NCBI GenBank assembly: GCA_030272155.1
Contig: CP126204.1
Span: forward strand, 3,773,501 to 3,837,500
DNA: 64,000 nt
Origin: Tetradesmus obliquus
Lineage: Eukaryota > Chlorophyta > Chlorophyceae > Sphaeropleales > Scenedesmaceae
Reading direction: 5' to 3'
In this document: positions 1 to 64,000 of the stretch, one piece after another
Layout of the letters: each line of letters begins with the position of its first letter
Numbering within the stretch: the stretch's first letter is position 1
Position numbers and translations under genes: made by a program
The notes under the pieces: model-generated
What the model saw: only the letters and a program-made list of their open reading frames with translations
Told to the model about the DNA's origin: nothing
Databases searched by the model: none

Positions 1-3000
1 ACTCAGGGAGGGCTGGCCCCCTCCGTACCTGCAAGCAGGCGGCAGACACCACACAGCGCGACACATGCAAACGCCATATGAGGCTGATCTGAAAGCTGTG
101 GCTTGTAAATTTTGGGCCGCCGTGAACAGCTAGAACGAGGGAGCAGCTGCAAAGCTTGCAGCGCAGCAGCTCCGCCAGAGACACTTGCTGTACAACACAC
201 ACATACATAATGTACGTGTAGGTTTTCACTCACAGAGAGTTGGTTTCGCTGATGCGTATGCCCAGTCGCTCCTTAGTCCCGATGCGCTGGTAATCCTTGT
301 ACTTGCTTACGCCAAAATCCTGCAGCGGCTGACTCAGCAGCTGCGTGGCAGTTACTGTCTCATTGTTGATGTAGGGGTAGACTGCACCAGGCGGCCAACA
401 GCAGCAGCAGCAGCAGCAGCAGAAACAACAGCAGAAACAGCAGCAGAAACATTCTTCAAGTGCAAGTCCTGCAGCGGATGGATCGGCTTCTGCGCGGCAG
501 TCACGTTCTTGTTGTTGATGTAGGGGTAGACAGCGTTGCACAACAACAAACATAGCCAGCAATAGCAACAGCAACAGCAACAATGCCAGCAACATCAGTG
601 CACGGCCAAGCGAGCATGTAACAGCACTACAGCACCCGCAGCACAGGCAACGCATGCAGGTGAGATTGTGCCTGCTGCTGGAAGTACAAAACATACTGGG
701 AACACAACCAGCTGCATCGCTGACAACCGTAGCAGTTCTGCAGGAGCTGGCCGTTGCAGGTCAAACACAGTCTTGACAGTATTACAGGACTAGGGGTTTG
801 AGGTGCTCACAGTGCACGTTGAGCTCCCGCAGGTAGCACTCCTTGCCCTGGTACAGGATGCGCGCCAGCCAGCTGACGGGCTGCGTGTTGACATTGCCTG
901 CATGGCAGCAAGTCAGCAGCAGCAACAGCGGCAGACATTGTGCAGCATAAGAGGAGCAACACCTTGAGTGACTAATGTTGACCAGCGGCTGTCTGACAAA
1001 CAGCACATGAGCTTGCTGTGCCTGAGACAGTGCACACACAGACTACCGCAAACATACCACAGCTCACAGGCTCACTCCGCTCAGGCCCAGCTAGCATCTT
1101 CTTTTGCTGCCTCAGGGGTTGATTGCCCACATGTTCTTGCTGCCGCAGGCGTTGATGGCAGCGCTACCTGGTGGGACCACTACAGCTGCACCCTGCCAAA
1201 ACCGCTGGCTGTGCCACAAACCCCCCTAAATAACAATCATAACACAAGTATGACGCTCACCCCAGCCAGGGCCTGACAGCATCTTCTTGCTGCCGCAGGG
1301 GTTGATGGCCAGAGCGACTTTGTGGAACCACTGTGCATAGGCCTCAAAGCCCGCCTTCCACTTGCCATCAGAGCCCCAGCCGCCGAGGCCGTTGGGCCAG
1401 AACTCAGGCTGCAGATCATAGCATGTGCAGGAGTAAGTTGCTGTGTAAAGTTTGAAATTATCAAGCACGTGCTGAATATGTCACTGGCTGTGTCCAGCCG
1501 CCCAGACCTTTTGGCCACAACTCAGGCTGCGATCAATTGCAGGAGTTGCAGAGCGGGTTGCGTTACAACATGTTTGAGGTTTAGCATGTTTGTAGTACAT
1601 ATGTCATCGTCCATGTCCAGTCACTCAGGCCTGAGGGCCAGGCTGTATACTGCTATTGCAGTAGGTCTTGGTATTGTTATTCGTCTGTTTCTATCTTTGC
1701 AGATTTTGATTTAAGCAACATTTACTACCTTTGCTATTGTCTGTTGCATTTTTGAAACTTGCATCAAAGACACAAGCACTGCTCGCTTTGCTTGCAGGGC
1801 TCTACTGCAGCTGTTCCTGCGGCACACACGTCACTGCCCAGCTCACAGCCGATGAAGGAGTCCCCCAGGTACTTGCGCGACTGCTCCCTCGTAACTCTTC
1901 CACAAAGCATGCAGCTGCTGCCGCTAGCACTCACCTCGTTGCCGAGCTCGTAGCCAATGACCGAGTCACCCAGGTACTTGCGCGACTGCGCCATGATCTT
2001 CTGGGACATGCCAATGGAGTTCTTGGGGAACAGCGGCAGACCCAGGATGAACCTGCAGCAATAAACATCATCAGAGATTAAATAAGATAGTTTCAGGCCT
2101 CGCCAGCCATCAAGAAGCACTCGCTAGCCATCAACAATGATCCTCTGGCAAATGGTCCGCAGAGTCTGCAGCTGCGGCGGCTGTACAGAAGTGTCGCCTG
2201 TCAACGCCATCTCAACACAGGAGACATTCATAACGCTGCATTCTTGGGCCAGACTCACTCAAGGCATGCTCACCTGCAGTTGGTGGCGTCCCTGAACTTC
2301 TTGAGCGCTATCCACACGTTGTCGCCAGGCACGCGCGTCATCTTGTCCTGGCTGGCGCCCCCCACCGAAGCCCACCTCCGCTGCCACCAGCGAATCCTCA
2401 GCAACAGCATTTGCAACTCATTGCAGCCGGCTGCTTGGCACATTCTTTCACCAGCCAGCGCAGTGCTGCCCCCCAAATACTCCAAATCAACCACACATTC
2501 CGTCGTCTTTCGCACCTGCAGTTGGTTGCGTCTCTGAACTTCTTGAGCGCGATCCACACGTTGTCACCCGGCACGCGCGTCATCTTGTCCTGGCTGGCAC
2601 CCCCCACCCGCACCACAGGCGAGGGAGACAGCATCTTGAAGATGTTGGCCCACGCCTGCGGCAGCAACAGCAGCAACAGTAACAGTGCTGTAGTGCCTAT
2701 CAGGCTAGCTCGGTTGCTGGCTGCTGTCGTCACCAGGTACCTCCTGCGCACCCCATCACGGTGCATGCTGCTGCGGGCACATCACATATCCTGCCCTGCA
2801 AGCTCTTCACCATGCAATGCACTAGGCGCTTGCAGAAGCCCCATATAAAACATAACAACACATGATTGTAATCATTCAGATCACACTCACGCTGACGATG
2901 CGCTCATCGCCATAGTCGCCAACCCTCAGGTACTCGTGCGAGGTGGCAAGGAAGGTGTCAGTGACACGCCTTCCGAGTGGGCCGCTGCTGATGCTGACTG

Positions 3001-3279: not shown

Positions 3280-3314
<35 letters not shown>

Positions 3315-5194: not shown

Positions 5195-6570
5195 TCACTG
5201 CTGCGCAGCAACGCCGGTGGAGCCAAAGCCGCCTGCGCCCCTGCTGGTGTCGTCCAGGTCTTCAACCACCTCCACATCTGGCGTCACGATGCACTCCAGC
5301 ACGAGCTGTGCAATGCGGTCGCCCTTTGCCACTGCAGCAGCACCAGCAGCAGCACGAAGAAAAGACAGGCACAGGCAGCAGGAGCAGCAAAGCATCAGCA
5401 CCCCTGCATACTGTCCCAACACACACCACCCCCCTTTGAACATCTCTCTGCGGTGATCGAGCAGCCCTATCACGCCTTGCCTGCATTGATGTGCTGTGTA
5501 TCCAACATCTGCACAGTACAAACGCCCACAACGCCCGCACTGCCAGTTGCCAACAAGCACACATGCATCTTCCGTGCCATACATGCTTGCTGGCCCCGCC
5601 ACGCACCCTTGAAGTCTGTGTCGTTGTGGTTGAACAGCAGCACCAGCACCTCCCCCCGGTAGTCCTCATCGATCACGCCAGCGCCCACATCGATGAAGTG
5701 CTTTGCAGCAAGCCCGGAGCGCGGCGCAACGCGGCCGTAGGTGCCGTGTGGTACGTGGATTGCAAGGCCGGTGTGCACTGCGTACTTGCCGCGTGCTGGG
5801 ATCACGCAGTCCTCGGCACTGCAGGATTCAAAGATACACGGCAGAGGCAAATGAATAGTGAGGAAAGTCACAGTCACCCCATTCCCGGGATCACACAGTC
5901 CTCAGCACTGCAGGAGGGAAAAGTCAGGGCAGCAGCAAAGGATGCTAAACTGGGAGCATGAGAAGGGCAGCGCAAGCTGGTGAGCACTGCAGCAGCACAC
6001 TGCATGCACGCCGCGTGCTGGGACCATGCAGTCCTCAGTGCTGCAGGAAGTTCTGCAGGAATGGTAACGAGGGATAAGGTGATAACGGAGGCTTGGTATA
6101 CAACTAAATAGCAGTGGTGGTTTGTGCAGCACAATAGGGGCAGGGCAAGTAAAACTACAGCAGCAGACAGCAGTGGTGCTGAATGCGCTGTTGCGTGGCG
6201 AGCAACATGCATGTCTGCTGACACAGTGCTATAACAAAGGACACAGCGTCGATGTTGGAATGTCACGCATACTTGAGATGCATGCGTGGCTGCAGGCAGA
6301 CAGCAGTGCATGCAAGAATGCTGCCTTCAAGCACACAGCTAGTAGCGCAGCAGCGTGTGCTGCGCTGCGGCAGTTCTGCTGCTGTGTCTTCCACGTTGCC
6401 ACTGCTCACCTGGACAGATCGTAGCCGGCAGCCAGTGCAGAGCCGCGCTTGGGTGCCTGTGCGTGCTCGTTGAGCAGCTTCACTTTGAAGCTGCTCTGCT
6501 GCTGCAGGCGAGGCTGCTTTGCTGGGGGCTCCATGGAAGGCAGGTTCTCCTGTGCGCTGAGGACCTGCAT
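5195..6570 (-). CDS. DUT: Deoxyuridine triphosphatase (dUTPase)
   Basis: Converts dUTP to dUMP and pyrophosphate, keeping uracil out of DNA and supplying dUMP for dTMP synthesis; homotrimeric in this family. Three exons, 6570-6410, 5818-5607 and 5331-5195, join in phase to 169 residues. Conserved motifs appear in order: [15 protein letters not shown] (motif 1, split by intron 1), [12 protein letters not shown] (motif 2), GVIDEDYRG (motif 3, catalytic Asp), [10 protein letters not shown] (motif 4) and [10 protein letters not shown] (motif 5, nucleotide-closing tail). All key residues are present, so an active enzyme is expected. Met at 6534 would give 157 residues; neither start has an obvious organelle signal, so nuclear/cytosolic action is likely. 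Intron 1 holds two extra copies of the exon 2 acceptor junction. It diverges from the gene starting at 7416. Confidence 0.93.
5884..5914 (-). repeat. First extra copy of dUTPase exon 2 acceptor junction
   Basis: Repeats TCCTGCAG plus the codons for SAEDCVIP that begin the working exon 2 (5818), 93 bp upstream of it. The copy loses similarity after about 24 exon bases. Confidence 0.75.
6010..6048 (-). repeat. Second extra copy of dUTPase exon 2 acceptor junction
   Basis: A third version of the same junction, about 220 bp upstream of the working one: TCCTGCAG followed by codons reading [10 protein letters not shown] in place of [10 protein letters not shown]. It is a potential cryptic acceptor. 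Confidence 0.75.
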
Positions 6571-7348: not shown

Positions 7349-7395
<47 letters not shown>

Positions 7396-18338: not shown

Positions 18339-19847
18339 GGCCGCCGCCAGGTGTCAGGGACGCAATGCGCCACAGCTTCACCGTCTTATCTGCACTGGCA
18401 CTAGCCAAGACAGCAGGTGGACAGCCATCACCACTGCTGCTGCTGCTGCTGTCACGGCAGTCACAGCCAGGCAGCACCAGCAGTGCTGTGACACTGCCGG
18501 TGTGGCCCCGCAGCGTGCGCACAGGGCGCACCATGCCGCTGGATGTCCTGCTGCTGCTGCTGCTGAAAGGCGTCCATAGCTTGACAGTTTTGTCTCGCGA
18601 GCCGCTGGCATACCTGCAGCAGCAAGTCACAGCTTGTGCATGCAACACACATGTGACACGCCGCTGCTGCATGTCCATACAGCAATTATACAGGCGCATC
18701 TGCAGGAAGCCTGGAGCGTGTGACACTTCCTGTCTTGCTCACTCTCCTACTCCCTCTATTTCTACACCAATCACGCACTTCTGCTGCATCCAAACCCTAG
18801 CTTATGAACCTAGTATATGAACTTACCCTGAGCTGCTGCCACCGGCAGCTGGCAGCTCCACCAGGGCATCAATGAATGCTGTGTGGCCATGCTGAGGGTC
18901 ACTGCATCTGAAAAGCATCCAAAGTGCATCTAAAGTGCATCTTGACGGTCTGGTGAACTTCACCCACTCACCGAAAGCTGCTGCCACCAGCAGATGGCAG
19001 CTCCACCAGGGCATGAATGAATGCTGTGTGGCCATGCTGGGGGTCACTGCACAGCCTTGTGCCAATATCACTGCAGCGCAGCAACCGCTGCTGCTGGCTG
19101 CCGCCTTTGTCTGCACCTGCATTACTGCAAGTAGCAGTGTCGGAAGGATCACTGCAGCTGCCGCTGCTGATGCTGCTGCTATCCATACGCCACCACACAA
19201 GGTGCTGGTCCAGCGCTGCTGCGATGCTGGGCGGCTGCCAGGTGGGCTGCATGCTTGCAGGACAGTGGCGGCTGCTTGCAAAAAGCTGGGCGCTTGCAGG
19301 ACAAGGTGCGCTGATCACCAGCTGAGCCACAGATGGTGGCTCGACTGCATGTGGTCTGCGTATGTCGGCGCTCCAAGGGTCTTTTGTGGACAGCTGTGCT
19401 TGCAGGCAATGTGCAAAACCAGCAGAAGTTGCGGAGAGGCTAAAACACAACCCAATCAGATGGTGCCAGTACACAGATGCATGGAACCGGGCTAGTGATT
19501 TCATGCAGGAGTTGCTGCCAAGCAGTACAGCTTGGCCAAACTGAGCAAAGGCAGCACAAAGCTGTACAGCAAAGGCAGCAGCAGCAGCGCACCTGGCATG
19601 CTGCAAGCACTGACTGCTTGTACAGCCCTGGCCAGTCGTGCACTCCAGATATGTTCTTGGCAGTTTCTGGCCACGAGCGTTTGAACTTGGAGCTCCACAA
19701 GCTGTGGTTGTGGGCTACCTGCTGATTCAGGCTCTTGCAGGCAGCAGACACCTGTGCGAGCGCGTCGCAACCCAGATGACCGCTGATAGCGACCCATGAG
19801 TCTGATATGAGGTCCAGAACAGTGGTGCTTGGCTCGCATGCTTCCAT
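17470..19847 (-). CDS. F-box/WD40-repeat protein
   Basis: Four exons, 19847-19593, 19393-18972, 18907-18827 and 18613-17470, join in phase to 633 residues. Exon 1 encodes an F-box (TVLDLISDSWVAISGHLG through SLWSSKFKRSWP), which normally binds SKP1 in SCF ubiquitin ligases. Exon 4 encodes WD repeats: YASGSRDKTVKLW, TLRGHTGSVTALL, LASASADKTVKLW, TLRGHSDCVTDLL, LSCSRDCRIKLWD, KGVQVWDVR and ASVAVWSIPDG, enough for a propeller. Poly-Ser insertions, one encoded by 22 CAG-type codons at 17639-17704, lengthen the loops. Exons 2 and 3 end in near-identical ~26-residue segments, an in-frame exon duplication. Known: F-box/WD40 proteins select substrates for ubiquitination; the substrate here is unknown. 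The stop overlaps a GTGAGT, so splicing to sequence further downstream is possible. Confidence 0.8.
17639..17704. repeat. (CTG)22 coding microsatellite
   Basis: 22 uninterrupted CTG units on the plus strand, read as poly-Ser (AGC) by the F-box/WD40 gene. Confidence 0.9.
18827..19050 (-). repeat. In-frame duplicated exon segment in the F-box/WD40 gene
   Basis: 19050-18972 (tail of exon 2) and 18907-18827 (exon 3) both encode CSDPQHGHTAFI(H/D)ALVELP(S/A)AGGSS. The ~80-bp copies differ at about ten positions, each with a usable donor, and exon 3 has its own acceptor. Phases 2 and 2 fit, so both can appear in the protein. Confidence 0.8.
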
Positions 19848-23048: not shown

Positions 23049-24170
23049 ATGACATCGGAGCTGCAGCGGCTGTCTGATCCCAACTATGCCATATCCCTGG
23101 CAGTTGGGCCTCCTTTCCCAGATTTGAAGCCGCAGCAACCTGGCAGCGGCCTGATACTGAGCAACCAGTGCAGCAGCCAGCCCCGCAGGTGAATTTTTTT
23201 AGAAAAATACATTTGCTGCAGATTTTGCTGATTTGTACTGTACGGTCTCCAGCAACTCGGTGAAGCATCTGCCACCCTACAGCTTCACTCGCAATGGACT
23301 CGCCACAACATGGTGTAGTCATGGTTGGCAGGAACTTCACCAATGGCCGTTGAGCTGTAGGGCCCATGATTGCTGCCGCAACTGCCATGGGTTCTGGCAT
23401 GACCACATGCGTTCAGCGTCCATATTGGTGTGAAGACAACATATCTCATGCAGAAGCAGATGATCAGACCATCCACATGCAGCAGCAACAGCAGCAGCAG
23501 CTGGACACCTCAGCAGCACCTGATTGTCGTCCTTATCCCAAACGTAGTCTAATAGGTGTGCTGCTTCGTGACCATTGCTTTCCACAACACAGGTTTGTCT
23601 TCAAGAAGGCGCACTTGTCACGAGATGACTTCCCGCATCTTTGACGGCAGCAGCGGCCGCCCAGTAGCAGTGCTGCGCCACTTTGGCAAGAACCCTTTCG
23701 AGAAGCTGGACCCACTGTCACTCGGCAACTTCAGTGATGCGCACCAGCACATGGTGAGTTCGTACATGTGGCCGTTTGAACATTACTTGGACATGTCAGC
23801 AATGCGCACCATCATATGGTAAGCAGATGTTTCAGCTTTTCTTGGCAACTGCAGCAATGCACGCCAGCGCATGGTGAGGTGCTGCAAGCCTGTCTCAGCT
23901 GCTTCAGCAAGGCCGCCCAGTGGCGGTGCTGCACCACTTTGGCAAGAACCCTTACGAGAAGCTGGACCCGCTGTCACTCGGCAACTTCAGTGACGCACAC
24001 CAGCACATGGTGGGCTGCATGCCTTGATGTTGCGATGAGCGACACAACCTGAACCTGCTGGGGTGTCACTAAGCAGCTTGCCTCTCACTGGCTCAAGCTT
24101 AAAACCATGCAACATAAAGCACATCAACTTGTGAGGCACCCGACTGGTGTTTTGTGATGCTTACTACGCT

Positions 24171-24482: not shown

Positions 24483-24972
24483 CAGCCTGAAGATCCGTCC
24501 CAAGGGCATCAGCAGGCACGGCAGAACGTTTACGACGGCAGCGGCCAGCGCCACCTCTTCAACATAGGCAAGGTGCGGGGCAGCTTCAAATCTTTGTGCC
24601 CACAGTTCTACCTAAGATTACGGCAAACTGGTGCTGCGCCTACAGTGCTGTATAATTCCTCAGGCACGGCACTGTTGTTAAAAATTCAGTCGCAATTCAA
24701 GGGGATGCATGGGCCTTGAGCTGCGGCAGCAGTACACAGCAGGTGTAAAGCCACCTAAAAGCTGCATTCTACTAGTTAAACGGGTGGCAAGGCGCGCGCC
24801 AGCATTGTTTTCGTGCTTCTGTTGTTGAAAATGTCATAACGCTGAATTTCTTGACCAAAACCCTGCATTGCTGATGGTGCTGCTGTTTGGTGCAGGCAGG
24901 AGAGCAACGTGAAGTCAATGGCACTGCGCTCCACCCCGTCAACCCTATGATGTTTTCCCGTAACAACGTTGC

Positions 24973-25032
<60 letters not shown>

Positions 25033-26763
25033 TGAGCCCTGCAGGAGAGCAAGCTGAAGGCTATGGCGCTGCGCTCCAACCTGGCTGTGAGGGGGCCGGG
25101 AGACAACAAGGACGTACTGTACAGGTCTGTTGTTTTCAGTATGTTGTGTGGGTTTCTGTGCATCCATGGCACACAAGTACATGAAAATGGGGGTGCAGGC
25201 GCATGCGGTTGGCAAGCGGCATGCAGCAATGCACGCCTCATTTACACACAGTAGTAGGTATGTTGGCACATACACCAAGCGTACGCTGCTGGCTGCTGCT
25301 GCTGCAAGGTGCTGCCTGACCTGATGGGGCGGACGCTGCAGATCGTGACACCCACTGATGAGCTGGTGTGCTTCGTGCAGAAGAGCACCAAGGCCCTGAT
25401 TCAGGAGGTGAGACAGCCAATGCTGTTGCTCATGCATTGATTCGGCTGGCATTTTGCACATGTCCCTAACGCAGCAGAACAGTGAAGAGCACCAAGGCGC
25501 TGATTCAGGAGGTGAGACAGCCATTACTGTTGCTCATGCATCGATTCGGCTGGCATTTTGCGCATGTCCCTAACGCAGCAGAACCGTGGATGAGCTGGTG
25601 TGCTTTGTGCAGAAGAGCACCAAGGCGCTGGTTCAGGAGGTGAGATGCCATTCCACATAAAAAGCGTGAATTGGCAGCTAATCAACAAGGCCATTTTTGC
25701 CGTTGTCATCGTCATAATCTGCAGCAGCAGTAGAGGCAGCGGCAGCAACAGCTTCATATACAACAGTTCAACCCGAGATCCACGACTTGGCAGCTATGTA
25801 GACCACAAAATGCAATGCACGGGCTGGAGAGCAGTGGTGTGATGGCTCAGCACTACTGTTGCCAGTCCTTAGGGGTCACTTGTTGCTTACTGTGTTTTGT
25901 TGGAAGCACTCAATGTGAACGCAGTGCTGTGCTGTCCTGCCGCAGGCTGCGCTGGGCTCTGGCAGTGAGATGATGATCGACGTGGCGCCAGGAGTGGACT
26001 GGGCCGCCATGATCGCAGTCATCATGGCGGTGCAGCAGGTGGGAGGGCTTGATTGGTTTTTGCATGCGTGTTCACTGTGTTGCTTCCCGTTTGGGTTTCT
26101 TGCTGAGCTGTGTTGTGCTTCAGACGTGGTGTGGACTGGAGCGCCATGATCGCGGTCATCATGGTGAGAAGACCCTGCTGCATGCTGCTCACCTACACCT
26201 CAAGAGGTCTCCCCCTCATGGTCAACCCGAACTGCATACCATGCTGTGCAAAGGCTAGCAGCCACCCTGCCCTGCGCAGTCGCAGACCTCCTTTCATCAC
26301 CCGTAGCCCCACGCCCTACATACGCTGTGCAGGTTGGCGCACACTGTGCCAAAGATGCTCTCAGAAACTATGTGCTGGGGCCCCTCAGTGCAGTTTACAC
26401 CCTTATCTGCTGTCCACACTGAGCTTAACACCATCCACGTTATGCTGCTTGCAGGTCGGTGCGCACCTTGTCAAGGATGCTCGTGGAAACTTCCTCATAC
26501 ACCACCGCACTGCACTTCACACCCCTGCCTGTTATTCACCTGAACTTCACACCATCCTTGTTTTGTCATTTGCAGGTGGGCGCGCACTTCGTGAAGGATG
26601 CTCTCGGGAACTTTGTGCTGGACCCCTCAAGGACTCGGCAGTGCAGGCAGCACTGTCGGGCTCAGGCATGGACGGGATGGCCAACAGTGCGGGCTCGAAT
26701 ATTGACGGCGCACTGCAGTTTGTGCGCAAGATGCAGATGATCCAGCAGATGTTTGCACAGTGA
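23049..26763 (+). CDS. LURP-one-related (LOR)/Tubby C-terminal-like protein
   Basis: Exons 23049-23188, 23593-23753, 24486-24572, 25045-25124, 25309-25407, 25946-26038 and 26576-26763 give about 282 residues starting MTSELQRLSDPNYAISLAVG. The order fits the LOR fold, a Tubby/scramblase-like 12-stranded barrel round a hydrophobic helix: FDGSSGRPVAVLRHFGKN, VYDGSGQRHLFNIGK, LQIVTPTDELVCFV, then IDVAPGVDWAAMIAVIMAVQ (the family's PGVD-hydrophobic helix) and VKDALGNFVLDP. A C-terminal extension ends MQMIQQMFAQ. Known: plant LOR proteins include defence-induced LURP1; biochemical role unclear. Two exons need one-base shifts, each at a C run (near 23,635 and 26,620), and the phase between exons 4 and 5 is not settled. 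Nearly every exon has a degenerate junction copy in the neighbouring intron. Confidence 0.62.
23841..24009 (+). repeat. Two donor-side copies of LOR exon 2
   Basis: 23898-24009 repeats 112 bp of exon 2 with its donor (RPVAVLHHFGKNPYEKLDPL through DAHQHM before GTGGGC). 23841-23873 is a shorter, more diverged copy (LGNCSNARQRM before GTGAGG). Neither has the exon's first part. Confidence 0.8.
24172..24249. repeat. (TGC)26 microsatellite
   Basis: 78 bp of uninterrupted TGC units in intron 2 of the LOR gene, the longest triplet run in the window. Confidence 0.9.
24899..24933 (+). repeat. Acceptor-side copy of LOR exon 4
   Basis: Repeats the opening of exon 4 (ESKLKAMALRS) as ESNVKSMALRS about 145 bp upstream. 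A (CTG)~19 run at about 24974-25031 separates copy and exon. Confidence 0.7.
25485..25650 (+). repeat. Two donor-side copies of LOR exon 5
   Basis: 25485-25520 and 25586-25650 repeat the end of exon 5 with its donor (KSTKALIQE and DELVCFVQKSTKALVQE, each before GTGAGA). The flanking intron sequence is repeated too, including CGCAGCAGAACMGTG. Confidence 0.8.
26118..26166 (+). repeat. Donor-side copy of LOR exon 6
   Basis: Repeats the codons for GVDWSAMIAVIM followed by GTGAGA, downstream of exon 6 (25946-26038). Confidence 0.75.
26452..26505 (+). repeat. Acceptor-side copy of LOR exon 7
   Basis: Repeats TTGCAG plus VGAHLVKDARGNFLI, 122 bp upstream of the working junction at 26576 (VGAHFVKDALGNFVL). 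Confidence 0.8.
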
Positions 26764-26929
26764 CAGACTTGCGGTATTGAACTGCCTTGTGGCAGCGGAC
26801 GATGGCCAGGTTCCTGCGCAACGTGTGTATGCAGCGGTGCAGCAGAGGTGTGTGCAACAAAGCAGCAGATGTGCGGTGCTGGCAGCACAGTGCTGCAAGC
26901 GGCCCGTGGGGGCGGTAGCACTGCCAGAG

Positions 26930-27285
26930 GGTTCGGGCATGGACGGGATGGCAAACAGTGCAGGATCTAACATCGATGGAGCGCTGCAGTTTGTGCGCAA
27001 GATGCAGATGATCCAGCAGATGTTTGCGCAGTAGCACTGGTAGCCTTGTGGCAGTGGACGGTGACCATTGCGCAACACGTACATGCAGTGGTGCTGCAGA
27101 GGTGCGAGCAGCAAAGCAGCAGATCTGCGGTGCTGGCAGCGCTGCGCTGCAAGGGGCCCGTGGGAATGGCAGCGCTGCAGGGCTTAGGCATGTATGGCAT
27201 AGCCTACAGTGCGGGCTCGATTATCGACGGCGCGCTGCAGTTTGTGCGCAAGATGCAGATGATCCAGCAGATGTCTGCGCAGTGA
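26930..27285 (+). repeat. Two extra copies of the LOR terminal coding segment after the stop
   Basis: 26930-27034 and about 27183-27285 repeat the last ~34 codons including a stop: GSGMDGMANSAGSNIDGALQ in the first copy, GLGMYGIAYSAGSIIDGALQ in the second, both continuing FVRKMQMIQQM(F/S)AQ. They lie 3' of the used stop at 26763 and should be untranslated. Confidence 0.8.
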
Positions 27286-39022: not shown

Positions 39023-42000
39023 TCACCATCCTGTGGGCCCCTTCTGAATTGCAGCACCCCCCGGCAAGCTCCAAGCTCCAGTCAGCTCCAAGCCAGCAGA
39101 CCCAGCACCGCCTGGCGACTGCTGCTGCTGCTGCTGCTGCTGCATGTGCTGCTGCTGAAGCATGTCCACAGCGGCTGCTTCAGCTGCTGCGGCTGCAGAC
39201 GCATCTGGCACCTCTGCATCTGGCGCTGCTGCAGACTGCACAGCCAGGCCGAGCTGCTGCTGGTGCTGCTGCTGCTGGTACGCGTGCGTCCAGAGCGCGC
39301 CTCCGTTGTGCAGCTCATCTAGGGACAGCTGCATCAGCTGCTCCAGCCGCGCAACTATCTGCTGGAAGGAGGGCCTGCAGGGAGAGAAAGCGTTATAGCA
39401 CATAACAACACATATGAGCCAGCGGCTGACCCTATCCTTCTAGTAACGCAAAAGATAGTGGATCGGTCGGTTGCTCAGGAGATGCTGACACTTGCTCCAA
39501 TCACAATCATGCACAATCCAAAGAACGCGTACAACCAGCAAGTAGTTGCGTTGCTTGTACTCAAAAATAACTAAATGTAACTGCGAATCACCTTGCAGCT
39601 GCCTCCTGCGCCCAGCACTGCTCCGTCAGCAGCCGCAGCGGCGCAGGCACGCCGGGCGGCCAGCCAGGCCGCCAGCGCTGCTGCACCACATTCTGCGCGA
39701 GCAGCGCAACTGGCACGCCCTGGAAGGCCCTCCGAGCAGTGAGCAGCTCCCACAGCAGGATGCCGTAAGCGTACACATCACTGGCTGAGCTGGCGCGGCC
39801 GTGCAGCAGCAGCTCTGGTGCCATGTGCGTGAGCGTGCCCTGTTGAATGCAGAGCGCGCGAGATGACGGCAGATGGACATGTTCAGGGTGTGCAGCTTCA
39901 AGCAGAAGACAAAGGCGACAGCATGCGGCATCAGCTGGAACGGATGGGCGGCATCTGGCACAAACAACGCTATGCTGCTGCTGCCGCGGCTTGTATGACT
40001 GGGCACTGCTGTGCAATGTGAGACCTGAATGGTTGGACGCAAGGATGCATTGAAGTGCAAAGAAAAATCATCAATGTAGGCAAGCACAAACACGCGCGAA
40101 AGCAATCAAGACAAGAGTGATAGCACTTTGCAAGAGCAGCAAAAGCAGCAACAGCTGCAGCTCACCGCGTGCATGTGAGACACGTGGGTGTCTCCAGGGT
40201 CCAGGCTCAAGCTCAGGCCAAAGTCAGCCACCTGCAGGCGCAAAATGACAACACAGAGCAACATAGGAACATGGTATAAGCTTCAACAGACTGTGCCAGT
40301 GAACCCACATTCGACCCTGTAGATGTAGCATCTCACATGTAAAGCTAGCATTGACCAGCGACTGCTAACAATGGCGTGAGCGCAGCAGCCGACAACCATG
40401 TAAGCAGCAGCTGACTGTAGTGTATGTTGTAGGGCAAGCAGGAGCACGCTGCACCAGTCAACAGTGCCCGTCTGCAGCACTTGTGCATCCAAATTGCACA
40501 CCAGGGCAGAACACGCTTTGCACCAATTAGGCTCACCTTGGCTATGAGCCTGCCCCCTGCTTTCGCCTGCGCAGCCGCCAGCAGAGCCACACACGACGCA
40601 TGGTCACCCGAGCCGTACCCAGCGCCAAACTCCTGCTGCAGCTGCTGCTGCTGCTGTTGTGCGGCATAGCCGCCAGGTGACATCAGATCTGCAGCGCTGC
40701 TGGCGCCAGTGCTGCTTGCTGCTGTAACTATTGGCGCGGTGCCGCGCGTGAGCAGGACATTGCTGGCCTTCAGGTCCGCATGTATCAGGTGCTCGCTGTG
40801 CAGGTGAAGCATTGCGCAGGCCACATCATGTGCCAAAGCCAGAACCATATGCAGCGCAGGCAGGGGAGCAGCGCTGCCGGCTTGGTCTGATAGCCGGCCC
40901 TGGTTTAGGGCTTGGCGCAGAGAACCCTGCGCATACACAGGCCAGCACAGGCAGCAGGCGCATCGTCCAAATCAACATGGTTGGGAGTGCTCAAACCTTC
41001 ACCATGCGCCAGCAAGCACAACAACCTCTGCATTGTGATGCGATGTTGTGGACTATTCGAATCATTCAAATTGACCTGTTTGTTGAATGCCAGTGAGCAT
41101 CTTGCTGTCCATCTTGCAGCAGTGCACACATGCCAGCACCTTCCAACCCAGACACCAGAAAGCACGCACCTCATCGCAGTACTCCATGACCAGCTGCAGC
41201 TCCCAGCCGCTGCCACATGCAGTGCCCTGCTGCTGCTGCAGGCCCTGCTGCTGCTGCAGCTGCTGCAGCTGCTGCTGCTGGCTGGCTGCAAGAGTGGGCA
41301 GCGGCTTCAGCGCAAAGGTGAATACCTGCAGGCACCGTTGATGATGTCATAACATCAGCACAGCGTGCGATATGAGAGCTTCAATCAGCACGCGCCCAGA
41401 TGAATCAAAGCAGGCGAATCTCGCACATGAGGCGCAGTCAGGCAGGCAACTTCAATCTCATTCCAGTCTTTGGTGCTGGGCTGGCAATGAGCCACGCACC
41501 TGCAAAATGTTGGGGTGCCTCATTGTAAACCAAGCTACTGCCTCCATGACTGCCATGACGACGCCACACATGAGGCAGCAATATGCACTCTGGCTTTCCA
41601 CTACTAGCTCAAGTTCATCAACCGCACCTGCACAATGTTGGGGTGGCTCATGGTAATGCTGACCACTGCCTCAATGACTGCCATGCCAACTCCACACATC
41701 AAATACGCACTCTGGCAGCTTCATTGCTAGCTTCACTTCAAAACACACACCTGCACAATGTTGGGGTGGCTCATTGTGACGCTGACCACTGCCTCCATGA
41801 CTGCCACGACAACACCACACATGAGGCAGCACTACGCACTTTGGCAGCGCCCATGCATCTACAAAAGCAGCTTGTACTAAAGAGCGCACCTGCACGATGT
41901 TCGGGTGGCTCATTGTAATGCTGACCACTGCCTCCATCACCGCCATGCGCTCGCGCGTGAGCAGCGCAGCATCGCCGCAGGGGTCAGCGCCTGGCTCGAT

Positions 42001-49388: not shown

Positions 49389-51556
49389 TTACGCCCCCTC
49401 GTTGATGACTCCCAGGTAGTCCTCCTTCATCGTCCCGATGCAGAACTGCAGCATCGCAGTAACAACAAGTGTAGGTCATTCAAGGCACGGGTATGCATCA
49501 GTACCCCTGCACAGTGATGCTGGCGGGCTGTGTAAGCTGCTTTAGGAGTAACAGAGCAGGATATGTAAGCATACAGTACCAGAGCAGTGTACAGCAGCAA
49601 GCCATTGACCTCAGGCTGCCCATCATGGCAGCAGTGCACCGCTCTGGTCATGAGACTCGAACGGTCAACACATGGGGTCACGCTGCAAAACAAAACAGCA
49701 GCAAATTTGCACTACAAAAAGGCAGGCAACTGCAGCATGTGGGGAGAGCACAATCAGCAGTGCAGGGGTGGCGCACCATGTCGTTTAGGTCTGTCCTCAC
49801 TCCCAGCACTTTGATGCGGACCTCACTGCCCTCCTTGATCTGCACAGCACCAGCAAAGGCACCATAAGATGTTTTGAAATTTGTGACAAAGCTTGCAGCC
49901 AGCACTGCAGAACACACACGGTTGATGAAGCTACAGGCAACGGGATCCGTGGAAGCAGCTCTCGGCTGCAGCCTGCAACAACTGCTTGCAGGACATGCCC
50001 CGTGGTCTGCAGTACAGGATATTCTGCGCAGCGTGGCGTAAGCTGCACCCAGCCACACCGCTTGTGGTCTATTCAGTAGCAAGTCCCAGCACCACCCCCG
50101 CCTGTGTGCAGCCAGCCTCCCTGCCCTATCCCTGCTTGTGTGTTCTGTCCACTTTTCACTGCGCACCTGACTGGTGGCGTCCAAAGAGAGGAAAGCGTCG
50201 CCGTTCACTGTGGAATACTCAAAGTCGTCCGGGATCAGCTGCAAGGTACAGAAGCCAGCAACACAGCAACAGCACCAGTGGGTGCATACTAGGGTGACTG
50301 GATTAGTGGAGTACTCAAAGTCATCCGGGATCAGCTGCAGCATGGAAAGTACAGTAACACAGCAACAGCACTAGTGGGTGCATACTAGGGTGAGTGGAGT
50401 ACTCGTAAACATCCAAGCTGAGGGTACAAACTTTGTGCTGCAGTGCAGTAACACAGCAACAGCATCAGTGGGTGCATACTGGGGGGAGTGACGCAATCGT
50501 ACTCCTGCAAGATGAGCTGCAGCCCAGAAAGCGAAGTTCAGAGCGCAGGTTTCATAGGTGCATTGTGCAACGAGCTGGACCTGCGCTAAAAGTGTGGACT
50601 TTTAGGCTAAAAGTCCACAGGGGGGCAAGAGCAAATCCATGCAATTTGTGAGATGTTTTCAGAAGTGCAGCTGATTTTGGCTGCTGCCTGCAGCTGCACA
50701 ACTACCCTGCAGCTTCCCTGAGCTGCACAACCTTGTGGCAGCAGCACCTGGCGACGCTGATGCTCTTGTCAAAACTGTCTTACTGCCTTAATCAAACGGT
50801 TTGTACCGCACCAAGTGTCTTGCTCAAACTGCTTCAGCTGCCTTTATGCAACTCACGTGGCTCGACACGAAGATCTGGACAGGCCCAGCATCAGCAAAGA
50901 AGCCCATCTGCATGAGCACATACGCAACGCAGCAGCGACAGCAGCAGCAACAGTATAAGAAGCAGCGGGGGAAACTCAGCAGTTTGAATGCAGCATGCAG
51001 GGGTTTCAGCGTGCTGGCTGAATCTCTCGAGCAGCTTTTTGTGGAGCCTTGGCTGTCACAGCAACCCTAGGATGATGCAGTTACGTGTAGCCCGTGTTTG
51101 CCAGGCACTGCTGCTGAAAGCACATGCGCCTCCTTTTAAGAGCCAGCTGGATGCGGCACATGGCCACAGTTGCCGCTGGCAGCCGCGCCTCGTTCACGCT
51201 GTTCACTACGCAGCCCAGCACACTTGGGAGCCGTATACATGACCCCTTCTTCACTGAAATGTAATAGCACAGAAAGGGCAATTGCAGTTGGCACACCCTG
51301 TGGCCATTGCTATGAGTATCATTAGTCCCTGTCATCATGAAATGACGAAAATGACACAGATCAGCATTGCTTGCAGGTGAACGGTTGTGCATTTTACCAT
51401 GCCTGAAACTGTCTTGTTACACATAAATTGTCATCACCTTGTTCACGCTGTTCACAATGCAGTCCAGTACTTCGCCCTTGAAGGGCCTGAAGGTGATGCA
51501 CTGGAAGTTGGCCTTGAACGTGGCCAGCCCGCTGCCATCCTGCCGGATCTTGCCCT

Positions 51557-54024: not shown

Positions 54025-54215
54025 CCTGCGCAGGCTCTGTCAAGACGCTGCACTTGTGCGAAGCCCGCTACCTGGCGCTAGCAGCAGCCTAACTACGCCG
54101 CCGCGCTTGCTGCTGCTGCTGCTGCTGCTGCTCCCTGCGCAGGCTCCGTCAAGACGCTGCACTTGTGTGAAGCCCGCTACCTGGCGCTAGCAGCAGCCTA
54201 ACTACGCTGCCGCGC

Positions 54216-54251
<36 letters not shown>

Positions 54252-55155
54252 CCTGCGCAGGCTCCGTGAAGACGCTGCACCTGTACGAAGCCCGCTACCT
54301 GGCGCTAGCAGCAGCCTAACTACGCTGCCGCGCTTGCTGCTGCTCCTGCTGCTGCTGCTGCTCCCTGCGCAGGCTCCGTCAAGACGCTGCACCTGTACGA
54401 AGCCCGCTACCTAGCAATGCTAGAGGAGGTGCTTTTGAACCCCGGGCGCAACAAATTTATTGGCCATGTGGTGGTTGAGCAGCTGGGAGACCCTGTCGGC
54501 AGCAGGGCATCTGCATTCCCACGCGCCTTTGTGGGTGACAACTTTGTGATGCTCATGGGCACACTGTGCAGGGTGAGTGTACAGTGAGGCGGCGCGGTTT
54601 GTTAACAGCTGGGTCCAGAGTTTTGGATTTGGTCAGCAACAGAAGTTTACTGTGGAAACAACATTGTGATGCTCATGGGCACTCTGTGCAGGGTGAGGCG
54701 GCACAAGTTGTGGCTAGTGTCAGCTGAAGCTGTGTCCAATTTATAACTAATTGTAAGTGATTGGGCGGCAGATGTTGTAAATGTGATGGGTGGCAGATGT
54801 ATTGCGCCGAGGACAACTGTGTGATGCTGATGGGCACACTGTGCGGGGTGAGCCGGCACAACTGTTGCTAGCCGCTGCAGCTGTGGCCTTATACTGTTGA
54901 AAGGAATGATCCAAGTCCTGTGTAAGGCGCAACTTTGTGATGCTCATGGGCACGCTGTGCAGGGTGAGGCGGCACAACTGTTGCGGTTGGCCAATGCTGG
55001 ACTCTAAACTTGTTCTTTGTAATCCACCCAACAAACTCTGTGGACAGGATGCAGACTGTGTTCAATGCATTCAGCTGCCGGTTAGCTTCGTGGCCACTGC
55101 ACTTTGGTGTACCAGTGCTGATGGTGACATGTACAGCTGTGTGATTCACCATAAA

Positions 55156-55208
<53 letters not shown>

Positions 55209-56745
55209 AGGTGCTTGAAGTGAAGAGCCTGCAAGTTGGTGCGCTTGTGAAGGTCCAGGCAGAAGCCCGGATTGCAGTCACACGCGTCACCCAGGTGCAG
55301 CCGTTTGTGCGGGGCAATGTGGAGGCGGTGCAAGATGGCCCGCTGCAGGACAGGCAGGCGGTGCAGCAGCAGCTGCAGCAGCTGCAGACAACAATGCAGG
55401 TGAGCAAGGGCGTTTGGATCTGTTGTGGCTGCAACTTCACTGTAGGTTGTTGAGGTGTTGCTGGTTCGTACAGCACAGGATAGAGTGAGGCACTTGCAGA
55501 TGCCACAAACACCGGCCGTGCTGCCCACACACCTTCACAGCTGGCTGCTATGCTCACTTTGTACGCGTCTCTCATCTGCATGCGGTCGCAAACGCCACAC
55601 AATCCGGCCGTGCTGCTCACACACCAAAACACAGCTAGCTGCTGTACTCACTTTGTACGCGTCTCTCATCAGCCTGCTATGCATCTTGTTGACTGTGCAA
55701 TTGCCTGCCTCTCATCTTGCTGAGTGTGCAATCACTGTGCAGATAAGCTCTGACCAGACCACAGCACGGCGCAGCATTCTTTGTTGTGGGAGTGTCACCT
55801 GTGCGCTTCTCCTTCTGCTGCTGCTGCTGCTGCTGCAGGATCTTCAAAACCTGTCAATGAAGTTCAGGTCAAAACACACAGCAGCTTTGCAGCATGCCAT
55901 GTACTGGTGGCCAAAAGCACCCCTCATACCAGCAGCAGCAGCAGCTGTTGAAGTTGAGGCAACACCCAGCAGCAGCAGCAGCAGCAGCAGCAGTAGCAGT
56001 CCTGACAGCGCTGTATTACTCAAGGAGGATCCATCCAGCACATCAGAAGCAGCTAACAACAACAGCAGCAGCAGCAGCAGCGGCAGCAGCCCTGCCGCAG
56101 ATTTAGCAGAGACAGCAGCCCGGCTGTCTTTTGCTGCCCTGCAGCATGTGCCTGAAGCTTCACCCAAGGTGCGCGGCAGCAGCAGCAGGAGCAGCAGCGG
56201 GAGCTCAAATGTTGGATGTGCATGGCAACGGTTGCGGCCGCCATGCCGCCTTCGACCTGCGCATACGTGGGATGATGATGCTCAGTGTCAGCTGACTGCC
56301 TCTACTGACCTACGTGAAGCTGTTACAAATAGACTTTGCCGAATTGTACTGTGTTACTGCCTGCAGGAGCAACTGAAGCTGCTGCGCTGCAGCGTAAATG
56401 CACTCTGCAGCACAGCAACTTGATGTGATTAGGCCCTACTTGTGTGACCACGGTTATGTTGCGCTGTCCAATCTGCCTGCAGGAGCAACTGAAGCTGCTG
56501 CGCTGCAGCGTAAATGCACTCTGCAGCACAGCAACTTGATGTGATTAGGCCCTACTTGTGTGACCACGGTTATGTTGCGCTGTCCAATCTGCCTGCAGGA
56601 GCAACTGAAGCTGCTGCGCTGCAGCGTGAATGCCCTTGAAACAGATGACACCAGCGCGCGGCTGGCGCTGGCGCAGCAGCACATGGGGGAGAGCCTGCAG
56701 CTGCTGGCGGCAAAGTGTGCGCTGAAGTCGCTGCAGCTTAGCTGA
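53143..56745 (+). CDS. LON N-terminal (substrate-binding) domain protein, probably plastid
   Basis: Exons 53143-53359, 53606-53672, 54373-54572, 55211-55399, 55839-56168 and 56599-56745 give ~383 residues. The first ~50 are basic and Ser/His/Arg-rich with few acids (MITAHQTRSHCANKQGSSRP), fitting a chloroplast transit peptide. The LON domain follows: FPMAVPLLPFPVEEVFLPGS, VKTLHLYEARYLAMLEEVLL, FIGHVVVEQLGDPVG, FVMLMGTLCRVLEVKSLQVG and RIAVTRVTQVQPFVRGNVEA. A Ser-rich insert (exon 5) and the helical end EQLKLLRCSVNALETDDTSA follow. There is no AAA+ or protease domain, so it belongs with stand-alone LON-domain proteins of plants and algae; role uncertain. The phase from exon 1 to exon 2 is not resolved; the others agree. 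The introns are full of junction copies. Confidence 0.78.
53737..53782 (+). repeat. Donor-side copy of LON exon 2
   Basis: Repeats the end of exon 2 (PFPVEEVFLPG before GTGAGA) as HFSVDEVFLPG before a GTAAGG donor. Confidence 0.75.
53990..54410 (+). repeat. 110-118-bp tandem array of the LON exon 3 acceptor junction
   Basis: Three copies of (CTG)n, CTCCCTGCGCAG and the codons for GSVKTLHLYEARYLAL precede the working junction at 54373; their acceptors are at 54032, 54142 and 54260. Each unit ends with CTAGCAGCAGCCTAACTACG, so a mis-spliced mRNA would meet a stop. CTG number varies between units. Confidence 0.9.
54536..54977 (+). repeat. Fourfold array of the LON exon 3 donor junction
   Basis: DNFVMLMGTLCR followed by GTGAG (54536-54578, working) recurs at about 54655-54700 (NNIVMLMGTLCR), 54817-54860 (DNCVMLMGTLCG) and 54931-54977 (RNFVMLMGTLCR), each before GTGAGSCGGCACAA-type intron sequence. 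Confidence 0.9.
55155..55209. repeat. (CTG)n run before LON exon 4
   Basis: About 17 CTG units that lead straight into the CTGCAG acceptor at 55210. Confidence 0.9.
56365..56640 (+). repeat. 116-120-bp tandem repeat of the LON terminal-exon acceptor
   Basis: CCTGCAG plus codons for EQLKLLRCSVNAL occurs three times (exon-like starts at about 56368, 56480 and 56599). The DNA between copies is almost identical (GATGTGATTAGGCCCTACTT and neighbours), so this is the youngest array in the window. Only the last copy continues into the open terminal exon. Confidence 0.9.
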
Positions 56746-58890
56746 CTCAGCACTCGGAGTGCTGCGCATGCAGGCTGGTGATGGCACTGTTGTGATTGGC
56801 CGGCCGGCTGGCGCTGGCTCAGCAGCACATGGGGGAGAGCCTGCAGCTGCTGGCGGCAAAGTGTGCGCTGAAGTCACTGCAGCTTAGCTGAGAGTACTGC
56901 GCAGATTGGCTGATGGCGATACTGTTATGATTGACGGCCGGCCATCATGTTTTGGGCCTGGAGTGTGCTGTGGTGTGACCATGTAACATCACAGCGCCAT
57001 TGCATTTAGTTTGGGCAAGCCCAAGCTGTACCGTATCAGCGACCATACTGTCTGACATGTCGCCTCAGGCTGGTTGATTGCAACGGAATGCGTAGTTGCT
57101 TGTACAACAACATGTTGTTAGAAGGCTGGGCCCCCTCCAGTCAGGCAGCGGCCGCCTATGACTCAAAGCCTGAGGCTGAGTCGTCTTTTAGGGCCTGCCC
57201 AATTACAGCAGCTGACGGCACAATCAGAAACTATGAAAACTCAGGTCTGCAAAGCAGACGAAAGCAGCAACGCCAGACAAGAAAGCACAACACAGCTTGG
57301 GGCACATGCGTATAAACCTTGGTTCAAGGTGTGATACGCTCTCGTGCACAAGAGCTTTTTGGCTGCACACTAAAATGAATCTGCCTCTCCCTTGGGGGGC
57401 TCTTACTGAGTAGGAACAGAGCCGTGAGTCACAGGCTGTCTCCCATGCCTCAGGGTGGTAGTACCACAAACACAGCCAGAGTAGCTGTGCAACATCACAG
57501 CACGCCGCCATATTGTCAGGTGGTCACAACTCAACAGTGGCATCATTGTTGTGCATGCTTCGCCGCGACAGACAACGCCACTGCACTGCTGCTTGTCATG
57601 GATTACATTACATTACATTACATGCTGCACTCAACGAGGAGTGGGAACCCCAATCATGCAAGTTCACAAGCGAAGCATCCATCACAGCTGCTTGCTTAAC
57701 CACTCCCTGCGTGCACTGCGCATGACTGGCTTACGCATTTTGACAAGAGTACAGTGACAAAGGAAAGGCACACGGCATGCACAGTGCTGTGCCAGCGAAA
57801 TCAGTCACTGGCTGTTTGCATGCAGGCTGGTAGACTTATTGAACAGCTGCTTGTTGCTTGCCGCATTAAACTGGCTGGCAGAACGCAGCAGCCGCCACAC
57901 CACATCACCCCTTCACATTACCTATTTGTTCGTGCAGTATGGTGTAGTGCAATGCCGCCCTGTGTGCAATGACAGGACCCTTCCAAACATGATCATAGAT
58001 GTGAGCTGTCATGGGATCATCCCCAGTTGCGTTGATGCGTGTGGAACATCAACCATACTGTGCACAACTGCACCATGAAGGGTTTTGTTTAATCGTATGC
58101 ATGATGCGTGCACGGCACACGACGTGCATTACAACGTGACGTTTTATGACTTGGGTAATGACAAGGGAGATGACCTCGGTTCAACAATGCAGCAGTGCCT
58201 GGCTCAAGCAGCAACGTACGTCAACCTTTGTCTGACGGAATAGTACTGCACGCACGCTCACCAGCTGGTTGAGGCTGATTTGAACAGCTTAGGTCCGCTG
58301 CTTACGTGTACAATGACAATCCTCTGTCAACAGTTTCTCGCGCTTGTCTGTGCAACTAGGATACAAGAGCTCTGCCCCACAGTCCCTGTCACTGCTAGCT
58401 CGCAGTCGGTGCACGTTCAACAGATGTACAATCCACAACTTGTCAGATCCACAAATTGAAGCCTCGTCAGTGCACGTGCTGGCTGCAGGGCAGCAGCACG
58501 CCTCACCAAATCCTCAACCAACCTTCTGTGTGTCGCAGTTTGCACTGCAGGGCTTGATCGCCAAACAGCAGCTCTTGCATGCGGCAGTGCTACAGCTTGA
58601 AGTACACGAGCGCGCATGTGCAGCAATCACAAACATCCATGCCCACACCGATGCTGCACAAGGCTTTCATCCTTCAAGTGCCATACAATGCACACTCCTG
58701 GATCGCCTGACAAACGGTGTATGTTCTCATCATCACCACTGATACTTGTACATACTTGCCAACGCAAAACATGCCCCGCACACAAAACACTTTAAAGCCC
58801 TGATCCACATGCACACGCCTGTACCCAGTCATCTGGTAGACCCAGCTACCGCAGCTTCAGCTGTTAAGCTTGGGTGCTTTTGGGATGAGT
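56746..58890. other. Intergenic region 3' of LON and of the small secreted gene
   Basis: No supported coding exon. Holds the 3' copy of the LON exon, a TGTAA at 56983-56987 that may end the LON transcript, and an (ATTAC)n run at 57602-57622. Confidence 0.4.
56808..56894 (+). repeat. Copy of the LON terminal coding segment after the stop
   Basis: Repeats RLALAQQHMGESLQLLAAKC, then ALKSLQLS and TGA, 60-150 bases beyond the used stop at 56745. Nearly identical to the working copy. Confidence 0.85.
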
Positions 58891-60004: not shown

Positions 60005-61167
60005 CCGACGTGTGCAGCAACTCCCCTTCCTATGACCCTGTTCTAACACCTTCAACTGCAGGTCAACTGCAGGTCAACTGCAGCTCAGGTGAACATCATC
60101 AGAACGACTTTGAGTCACACCAACATGCGCCATTCATATAAAGCAATTTACCGTGCATACACTCGTGTTGTGAATCGAGTTGCTGCATCCTTCTGCTTAC
60201 ACTGGCACCACCTACAGCACCTTGTTGTCACCAAGCCGCAAGTGGTAACAGGGCACAGCCGCCGCCCACCCGCAGCTGCAGCGGCAGTGACGCAGCTCAC
60301 AAGGCCACAAAGCACTCAACAGCGACAAATCGAAACAAGCATTGCTTACTGCGTAAGTGAGCAGTGGAAGAATGTTACACGTCGGAAACACCACACCTCC
60401 GCAGCAGTAACCGTTGGAACAGTCATACAGTCCCCGTGCCAAAAGAGAGCATTATGCAGCATGACCAGCAGCCACACGTGTGGCTGTGCACAGTGAACAG
60501 CCACCTGCCAAGCGTTATGCTGCTGCAGTACCTCGCTTGAGTCGCCACACAGGCTGCACTTCTACGCTAAAACACAAGGAGGACACAAACACCTCCTGGC
60601 CCTAGCCAGTAGCTCCTGCAGCAACGTTGCATGCCCGCAATTGTTGCCTCGCATGAGTTTACAAGCTGTGCACGTAACTGCGCCGAGTGCAAGCGCCGCG
60701 CACGGCGCAAGACCATAAAAATGAGCAGCACCGTGACCGCAGCAGTCAACTAAGTGTGTGTGTGGCATCAACTAAACAAACCAACCTCCAGGTGTACCAC
60801 ACACACCACCCCTTGCCTGAAAGAGGCACCAGGCCGCAACTTGCTCAGCGACGCATCTCACGCAACCAGCCACTAACCAGAAAATACTAGCCCAGCTCCC
60901 TAGCGGCGGCCAGACAGCAAACAAGACGAGAGTAATGATACATGCTGCAGCAGCAGCAGCTGCGACAGCAGCCTGATGATGCCTAAGCAGCTGCAAATCT
61001 CATGCAGAGCAACCAAGTGCCAGTGCGTTGCACACTTCTGGCACACACTGCTTGCTTGCAATCGACCTTCCGGCCAGCACATGCATCTGCCGCTGCTGCT
61101 GCAGCCGCCCCCAGCAGCAGCTGGCCTCCAGCAGCAGCAGCAGCAGCGCCAGCAACAGGTGCTGCCG
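60005..61167. other. Intergenic region
   Basis: No supported coding exon. Contains GTCAACTGCAG-type 11-bp units repeated three times near 60056-60085. The rest is the upstream region of the small secreted gene and the 3' region of RAB2. Confidence 0.4.

Positions 61168-64000
<2,833 letters not shown>

Follow-up and report, generated by a model that had tools for sequence, protein, structure and literature searches.

Several described kinds of duplication invite comparison with the one reported here, among them the paired-nick duplications of plants reportedly treated by Schiml et al. 2016. In primates, repair-mediated duplications (RDs) arise by the capture of proximal DNA, and exons and splice sites are among the sequences copied (Pace et al. 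2009, PMC2671141). The accessible passages of that paper give 824 human cases, found only as insertions in transposable elements and with a mean copy length of 162 bp, place the donor within 5 kb with a seeming peak at about 1,200 bp that the authors regard as perhaps made by the method, and state that copies within 50 bp of each other were excluded from the survey (PMC2671141). Small tandem duplications at staggered breaks are ascribed, in the available text of a further study, to overhang fill-in by Pol alpha-primase/CST (PMC8355091). For the RdRp gene of potato the consulted part of the source describes a duplication across an intron–exon boundary that is reused by splicing, and it names tandem duplication as one proposed source of introns of which proven recent gains are few (PMC4974935). 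Tandem exon duplication with mutually exclusive exons also leaves repeated exon sequence within one gene, some of it synonymous-biased according to the excerpt available (PMC9013439). Among the five algae tabulated in the Raphidocelis paper, as far as its accessible sections go, Tetradesmus obliquus has the longest mean intron with 462 bp (PMC5966456).

Here we analyzed a stretch of 64,000 nucleotides of T. obliquus, in the following called the window (contig 14, positions 3773501-3837500, of a 104.66-Mb genome in 17 contigs), by comparing it with itself after masking of simple repeats. At offsets below 600 bp this yielded 42 direct versus 0 inverted repeats at a score of at least 50 and 51 versus 2 at a score of at least 40. 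At a cut-off of at least 45 the real window holds 25 clusters, and five order-3 Markov shuffles of it gave one pair in total. A 50-kb stretch of E. coli, used as a control of the method and not as a eukaryote control, gave two pairs, both in one intergenic array. The genome was sampled by twenty 10-kb stretches at fixed, non-random places (base 500,001 of all 17 contigs and base 1,500,001 of three), of which one (L010) is all N and was excluded, leaving 19 readable stretches. Direct repeats at a score of at least 50 were present in 15 of these 19, with 181 direct and 0 inverted repeats at offsets below 600 bp. Window and sample merged contain 104 clusters in 254 kb, corresponding to 4.1 per 10 kb, and 33,456 of the 254,000 bases (13.2%, leucine-rich repeats counted in) lie inside local copies. 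A preliminary description of the window had reported copies in a series of named genes and proposed them to be a frequent, genome-wide feature; the self-comparison detected them in each of these genes, and the positive stretches of the sample together with the near-empty shuffles bear out the wider claim. The copies had also been called degenerate, which holds for part of them: pair identity ranges from identical to about 75%, and among the gapped pairs of the sample 33 reach 90-100% identity. One sampled stretch (L021) has roughly equal numbers of near repeats and of repeats at distances of 1-9 kb, and composition rather than local copying may be their cause there. Arrays in which many copies are crowded into 1.6-2.0 kb, giving 12-18 repeat pairs per array, were seen at L020:487-2486 and 2751-4377, L016:4375-6001 and L021:3342-5196, the last of which may be caused by low complexity, and a 16-bp minisatellite (7.7 copies, 99%) lies at 61424-61546 of the window. 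A search of the open-access literature, judged from listings and passages, gave no description of the pattern in green algae.

As read by eye, 19 of the 25 clusters of the window touch an exon end, and eight were also selected automatically with good splice sites in both copies (Table 1). Pfam supports dUTPase, WD40, protein kinase and Ras in frames of the window and gave no family in the four frames taken as GH79 or in the RPB7 frame; the names GH79, LOR, RPB7 and LON are assumed from the preliminary description and from known sequences. The F-box/WD40 frame has its best protein match in T. obliquus (73% identity), and the copy in this gene had been taken for a whole exon. This could not be upheld, as the T. 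obliquus protein P0001 aligns unbroken from 19252 to about 18971 and the exon is thus longer than the 76 bp copied. The first two copies of the last-exon end of the LOR gene differ by 10 synonymous and 0 non-synonymous changes. Elsewhere in the LOR frame (window 26571-26650) one extra base seemingly is needed, by eye, between NFVLD and PLKDSAV, which may be due to an indel in the assembly, to an intron that was overlooked or to a copy that is broken. The repeats at 10637-10996 of the window (69 and 140 bp) were rejected as junction copies, since by eye they are leucine-rich repeats inside a coding frame.

Table 1: Local copies in the window, with positions counted from its first base; a slash within a sequence marks the exon–intron junction.
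Gene	Feature	Position	Strand	Basis
GH79	exon head, two copies 149 bp apart, 80% identity	315-385, 464-534	-	exon read by eye
GH79	copies 1130-1181 and 1280-1332 (150 bp), 1049-1127 and 1234-1310 (185 bp)	1049..1332	-	self-comparison
GH79	head of exon starting QPEFWP: true 1376-1434, upstream copy 1494-1546 (118 bp)	1376..1546	-	
GH79	exon tail (..YELGNEV/GTGAG) 1910-1992, copy 1806-1887 (104 bp)	1806..1992	-	
GH79	exon tail and donor 2513-2608, copy 2271-2366 (242 bp); coding differences synonymous 6/6	2271..2608	-	
dUTPase	exon head TGCAG/TGCCGAGGAC, copies 5887-5942 and 5998-6048	5776..6048	-	Pfam supports dUTPase
F-box/WD40	exon tail 18976-19051, copy 18831-18906 (145 bp, 95%)	18831..19051	-	
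LOR	segment of 102 bp with a GTG donor at its end, present twice at a spacing of 256 bp, 93%	23655..24012	+	
LOR	exon head, two copies, 145 bp spacing	24896..25081	+	
LOR	exon tail with donor in triplicate (25357, 25484, 25589); a 104-bp tandem unit includes the middle copy	25357..25652	+	
LOR	exon piece, two copies, 137 bp spacing	25991..26164	+	
LOR	exon head after TGCAG, three copies ~122 bp apart	26328..26629	+	
LOR	last-exon end including stop codon, three copies ~254-268 bp apart	26646..27285	+	
receptor kinase	exon tail and donor, 3-4 copies at ~123-128 bp	41493..41948	-	
RPB7	exon head TGCAG/CTGATCCC, repeated at a distance of 96 bp, plus a third, weaker copy	50210..50516	-	
LON	exon head with acceptor, four copies at ~109-119 bp; the last runs on into the exon	54030..54415	+	
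LON	exon tail and GTGAG donor, four copies at ~117-155 bp	54537..54984	+	
	two copies 92 bp apart, without junction assignment	55496..55677	.	
	exon head following CTGCAG; tandem unit of 116 bp, 2.4 copies, 99%	56357..56636	+	
	part of an exon with a copy at 146 bp; 2 synonymous, 0 non-synonymous changes	56659..56942	+	
RAB2	exon tail (..HNVEE/GTGCG) 62098-62155, copy 61941-61998 (157 bp)	61941..62155	-	
RAB2	exon head CTGCAG/CACCGGCG 62165-62220, upstream copy 62278-62333 (113 bp) that runs into a stop codon	62165..62333	-	

The spacing of the copies was determined by a diagonal scan to 400 bp with units of up to 18 bp masked. Planted units of 40-60 bp were recovered in 18-20 of 20 cases up to 10% divergence, and units of 30-40 bp at 10-15% divergence in 5-18 of 20, so that the lowest bins are less sure. 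Eight of the 105 clusters have offsets of 19-39 bp, 5 of 40-89 bp, 75 of 90-159 bp and 17 of 160-400 bp. This agrees with the spacing of mostly 90-160 bp that had been noticed before, and adds to it a true depletion at 40-89 bp. The preferred range holds for the window alone (20 of 26 clusters) and for donor-type (22/31), acceptor-type (20/25) and other clusters (32/42), and one of the seven clusters of the scan that have no match in the earlier list falls into it. The floor near 90 bp persists under the diagonal scan with its planted control; a blastn self-comparison was dropped as proof of it, as planted 30-50-bp units were missed there too (0/20 each). A minisatellite growing by replication slippage was rejected because the unit spectrum does not fall with length, 90-159 bp and not short units being the commonest.

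In 68 of the 104 clusters the aligned length is less than 0.8 of the offset (gapped), in the remaining 36 it is at least 0.8 (tandem-type), and the median offset is 122 bp. The gapped clusters show a layout R-X-R, in which a piece R is followed by an unrelated spacer X and by R again; in LON four R alternate with three X, and in the 33 gapped pairs of at least 90% identity R measures 28-90 bp and X 36-103 bp. The copies are frequent and genome-wide, as supposed originally, but simple tandem duplication of about 100 bp is insufficient as an account in view of the gapped majority, the little homology of the flanks and exon parts that are more alike than expected of neutral copies. The flanks of 83 gapped pairs reach a mean score of 17.7 versus 13.3 in the null, with 18% of 165 flanks above its 95% point (P 2e-6), and several of the high-scoring ones adjoin CAG/CTG runs. 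When 88 spacers were compared within the sample, only five weak matches (score 38-40) appeared outside their own local arrays, and each of two spacers searched genome-wide, with very common words passed over, matched at a single place. An introner-like or other mobile element was thus rejected, these spacers not being common to different loci. A splice-bounded look of the copies was first measured on ungapped blocks, which overstates the effect, and was corrected with gapped alignments. In these, 41 gapped pairs share a median of 11 bp of intron and 47 bp of exon, and in the 19 gapped pairs with an identity of at least 0.92 the shared intron part has a median of 9 bp; the 16 tandem-type pairs have a median intron part of 122.5 bp versus the 11 bp of the gapped pairs.

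In order to assign the copies to a side of the exon we used a codon-usage score that picks the side where the exon continues. By this score the copy lies on the allowed, that is the intron, side in 80 of the 104 clusters and on the wrong side in 24. Good splice sites were found in both copies of 57 of the 70 scored allowed-side pairs, the site having been chosen to fit both and no null having been run. An analysis independent of gene models gave CACC, ACCT and CCTG as the 4-mers with the strongest enrichment at R edges, matching the donor CAG/GTG read in reverse complement, with CACC at 24 of 208 copy edges versus 6.8 expected; splice dinucleotides at the edges, counted on both strands, are in modest excess only. 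The selection of ungapped coding blocks biases the splice-site, edge-motif and frame results as well as the divergence of 32 pairs given below. If the copied site was used with the spacer retained, 38 of the 57 pairs would shift the frame, 12 would meet a stop and 7 would stay open in frame, and the spacing modulo three (19/17/21) has no bias towards multiples of three. A partner splice site within about 15 bases is present in 18 of 32 and 10 of 25 copies, about the background rates of 0.57 and 0.42, as worked out and compared by hand. Mutually exclusive or full alternative exons were rejected on the absent partner-site excess and on the mere 7 of 57 pairs that are in frame and open. Recursive splicing was rejected as well: 21 of 32 donor-type ends carry AG/GT by eye, a share ordinary for exon ends. 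The earlier idea that copies survive where splicing or termination hides them is in line with the intron-side majority and with the 50 of 57 frame-breaking pairs. Tracts of (CTG)n stand directly 5' of acceptors and of their copies at L033:1159-1510 and L034:1926-2150 (reverse-complement numbering), where they apparently act as the pyrimidine-rich stretch and may promote instability.

Exons defined by a protein were available for a transporter gene on the same contig as the window (L022), which matches P0088 (jgi/Sobl393_1 SZX61996.1) with 82% over a joined query that omits stretches and with about 99%, by eye, when all ten exons are joined; we take Sobl to be Scenedesmus (now Tetradesmus) obliquus. 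Joined at GT/AG, the ten exons reproduce P0088 but for a few residues, and P0088 omits the copies. For this gene, the only one checked so, the copy next to the exon was thus exactly confirmed to leave the gene intact; with regard to intron gain, P0088 shows no more than the absence of the copies from that product. By our count copies touch 7 of the 18 exon ends, and 11 of 17 repeat pairs, not all of them independent, link exon and intron. In this one gene, random placement with one copy forced outside exons gives a share of 0.49 +/- 0.12 (P 0.14), and selection against copies within exons may suffice. The placement is not significantly above random and is compatible with randomness plus a coding filter, so that an attraction to junctions is not supported. 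Intron and exon parts diverge in a ratio of 2.1, with 1 gap column per 489 exon columns and 26 per 376 intron columns, gap columns being non-independent. At L022:5157-5350 the tail of the working exon has A/T-ending codons (GCA CTA TCA GCA GAA CTA ACT), and its intronic copy encodes nearly identical amino acids with codons that, as elsewhere in the gene, mostly end in G or C. A general recoding of working exons was rejected, GC3 being 0.82 in the true and 0.81 in the copied parts of 61 pairs.

GH79 paralogs on contigs 6 and 4 (L033 and L034) carry a copy of the same exon head as GH79 in the window, namely that of the exon starting QPEFWP. The copies in L033 and L034 clearly match the exon of their own gene, and the copy in the window is, by eye and over the first 33 bases, about equally far from its own exon and from the L033 exon. 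The resemblance of the paralog copies to their own exons argues that copies arise often or are refreshed. In L033, by eye, about 25 bp of other sequence connects three units that each consist of an intron end and an exon head. Recurrence was also seen in a second collection named 'lgn', which presumably holds independent assemblies of public reads: the read-through of exon, spacer and copy in L022 matches P0144 over its full length with 99% protein identity (four sequences on three contigs). In the same collection the predicted proteins P0121 and P0128 read through exon, intron and repeated exon end, with duplications at the same exon end as in L022 and at another one. The remaining 15 of 18 matches contain, by eye, no duplication within the predicted stretch.

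For the divergence of the copies we took from the 57 splice-site pairs the 32 in which the exon and the intron side each have 15 or more aligned bases. Exon parts differ by 0.093 versus 0.230 in the intron parts, a corrected ratio of 2.76 (95% CI 2.0-3.8), where neutral copies are expected to give about 1.5 assuming an exon dN/dS of 0.1. Codon differences were counted in 61 of the 104 clusters, namely those on the allowed side with a score of at least 13 and 8 or more codons, after exclusion of two clusters of leucine-rich repeats. They comprise 165 synonymous and 145 non-synonymous ones, a synonymous share of 0.53 (CI 0.46-0.61) of 310; constraint on the true exon alone would give 44%, and a lack of constraint on both copies 28%. 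Synonymous-rich pairs (10/0, 8/2, 7/2, 6/0 and several 4/0) stand beside non-synonymous-rich ones (0/5, 1/6, 4.2/8.8). Perhaps the copies are not fully neutral, and the constraint on the exon parts could be explained by re-copying from the working exon, by occasional exon use or by both.

Taken together, we favor a very frequent local duplication of the repair type that is tolerated where splicing or termination hides the copies, and give this reading a probability of roughly 0.58. A stretch of some 30-150 bp would be copied to a place starting about 90-160 bp away, often with about 30-100 bp of unrelated sequence between the two copies, in a process resembling either the capture of nearby DNA or a repair that adds filler at DNA ends which are broken or staggered. 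Copies that preserve the frame would persist inside introns, across one junction on its intron side or past a stop, the spliceosome would skip the outer splice site, and copies would be born and lost repeatedly. The reading builds on the observed frequency, spacing, gap and side of the copies, on their lack of a partner-site excess and on their recurrence in paralogs and in a second collection; to these it adds that the process would be one of repair, that the skipping would occur in RNA and that most copies would be neutral. We prefer it because the repeats at a score of at least 50 are direct only, the offset peak is common to all cluster types, the R-X-R layout comes with unshared spacers, copies lie mostly on the intron side and mostly break the frame, P0088 is free of them, the placement in L022 is near to random plus a filter, exon, spacer and copy recur in 'lgn' contigs and the L033 units are joined by short other sequence. 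It is weakened by the slow decay of the exon parts (2.76 versus about 1.5) and the synonymous share of 53% versus 44%, by the short intron part shared in gapped pairs and the enrichment of CACC at the edges, by the flanks above the null and by the composition of L021. The cause of the 90-160-bp ruler is left unexplained by it, as ordinary repair predicts no 90-bp floor.

The same slow decay, with its few gaps, would be expected if the duplications were older tandem ones in which the working exon, through repeated re-copying or gene conversion, maintains the likeness of the exon part and the spacer and intron parts decay; high identity would then say little on age. Sharp-edged copies with little flank homology and the GH79 copies of L033 and L034 resembling their own exon also speak for this account, but the synonymous-only differences (6/6 in GH79, 10/10 in LOR) indicate that conversion is rare there and about 50 bp of homology is short for gene conversion, so we regard it as unlikely, if still worth considering. 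The synonymous excess, strongest in the synonymous-rich subset, and the splice consensus in both copies, with the reservation on its fitting made above, would suit copies held by selection as alternative exon ends or as decoy ends tuning splicing. Against such a function stand the non-synonymous-rich pairs, partner sites near background, the even spacing modulo three, the frame-breaking majority and the omission of the copies from the compared proteins, which make it quite doubtful. A coupling of the copying to splicing or RNA, either by pre-mRNA-templated repair or by retention only of units long enough to form their own intron, would set a 90-bp floor and edges at splice sites, and the floor, the donor motif at edges and the short shared intron part of gapped pairs all fit. 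Clusters without a junction, some of which may be missed junctions, nevertheless have the same spacing, the splice-dinucleotide excess is modest and the AG/GT share ordinary, and we consider this coupling improbable. That the copies are an artefact of assembly or haplotype merging appears highly improbable: one sampled stretch is indeed all N, but the recurrence of exon, spacer and copy in P0144 at 99% makes an assembly artefact less likely, and P0121 and P0128 are similar.

A bolder version seems speculative and rather unlikely to us. In it a copying process with a built-in ruler would act on the genes of the alga, preferentially with its start or end at a splice site and thus in coupling to transcription or splicing; it would continually supply introns with copies of exon ends, some of them coding-constrained, and be one of the main origins of long introns and of new splice structures in Scenedesmaceae. 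With about four visible clusters per 10 kb, at ages from identical to about 75% alike, the genome would make it possible to measure directly how duplicated splice junctions are born, hidden and lost, and the 90-bp floor calls for a mechanism. The copies are also an annotation hazard, as gene finders may call them as exons; ab initio gene models from a self-trained HMM (254 kb) were dropped, as copies were predicted to be exons after a drift of the model (donor G 0.87, T 0.72).

Compared with known systems, the copies of the alga are, like primate RDs, short, local and non-adjacent (most of them gapped), and the sequence between them may correspond to filler, whereas about 4 clusters per 10 kb and a ruler of 90-160 bp distinguish them from the RDs as described in the accessible passages. 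With the duplications at staggered breaks they have in common the small size of the duplicated units. Those duplications are, however, tandem units in the available text (PMC8355091), which mentions no spacer of about 60 bp, no splice-junction pattern and no natural density of the kind seen in the alga. Unlike the potato RdRp case with its reuse by splicing, the copies are many and mostly unusable in frame, and unlike mutually exclusive exons they are mostly exon ends without an excess of second splice sites and mostly frame-breaking. Thus density, ruler and spacer set the alga apart from RDs, staggered-break duplications and the potato case, and the RDs are the closest kind.
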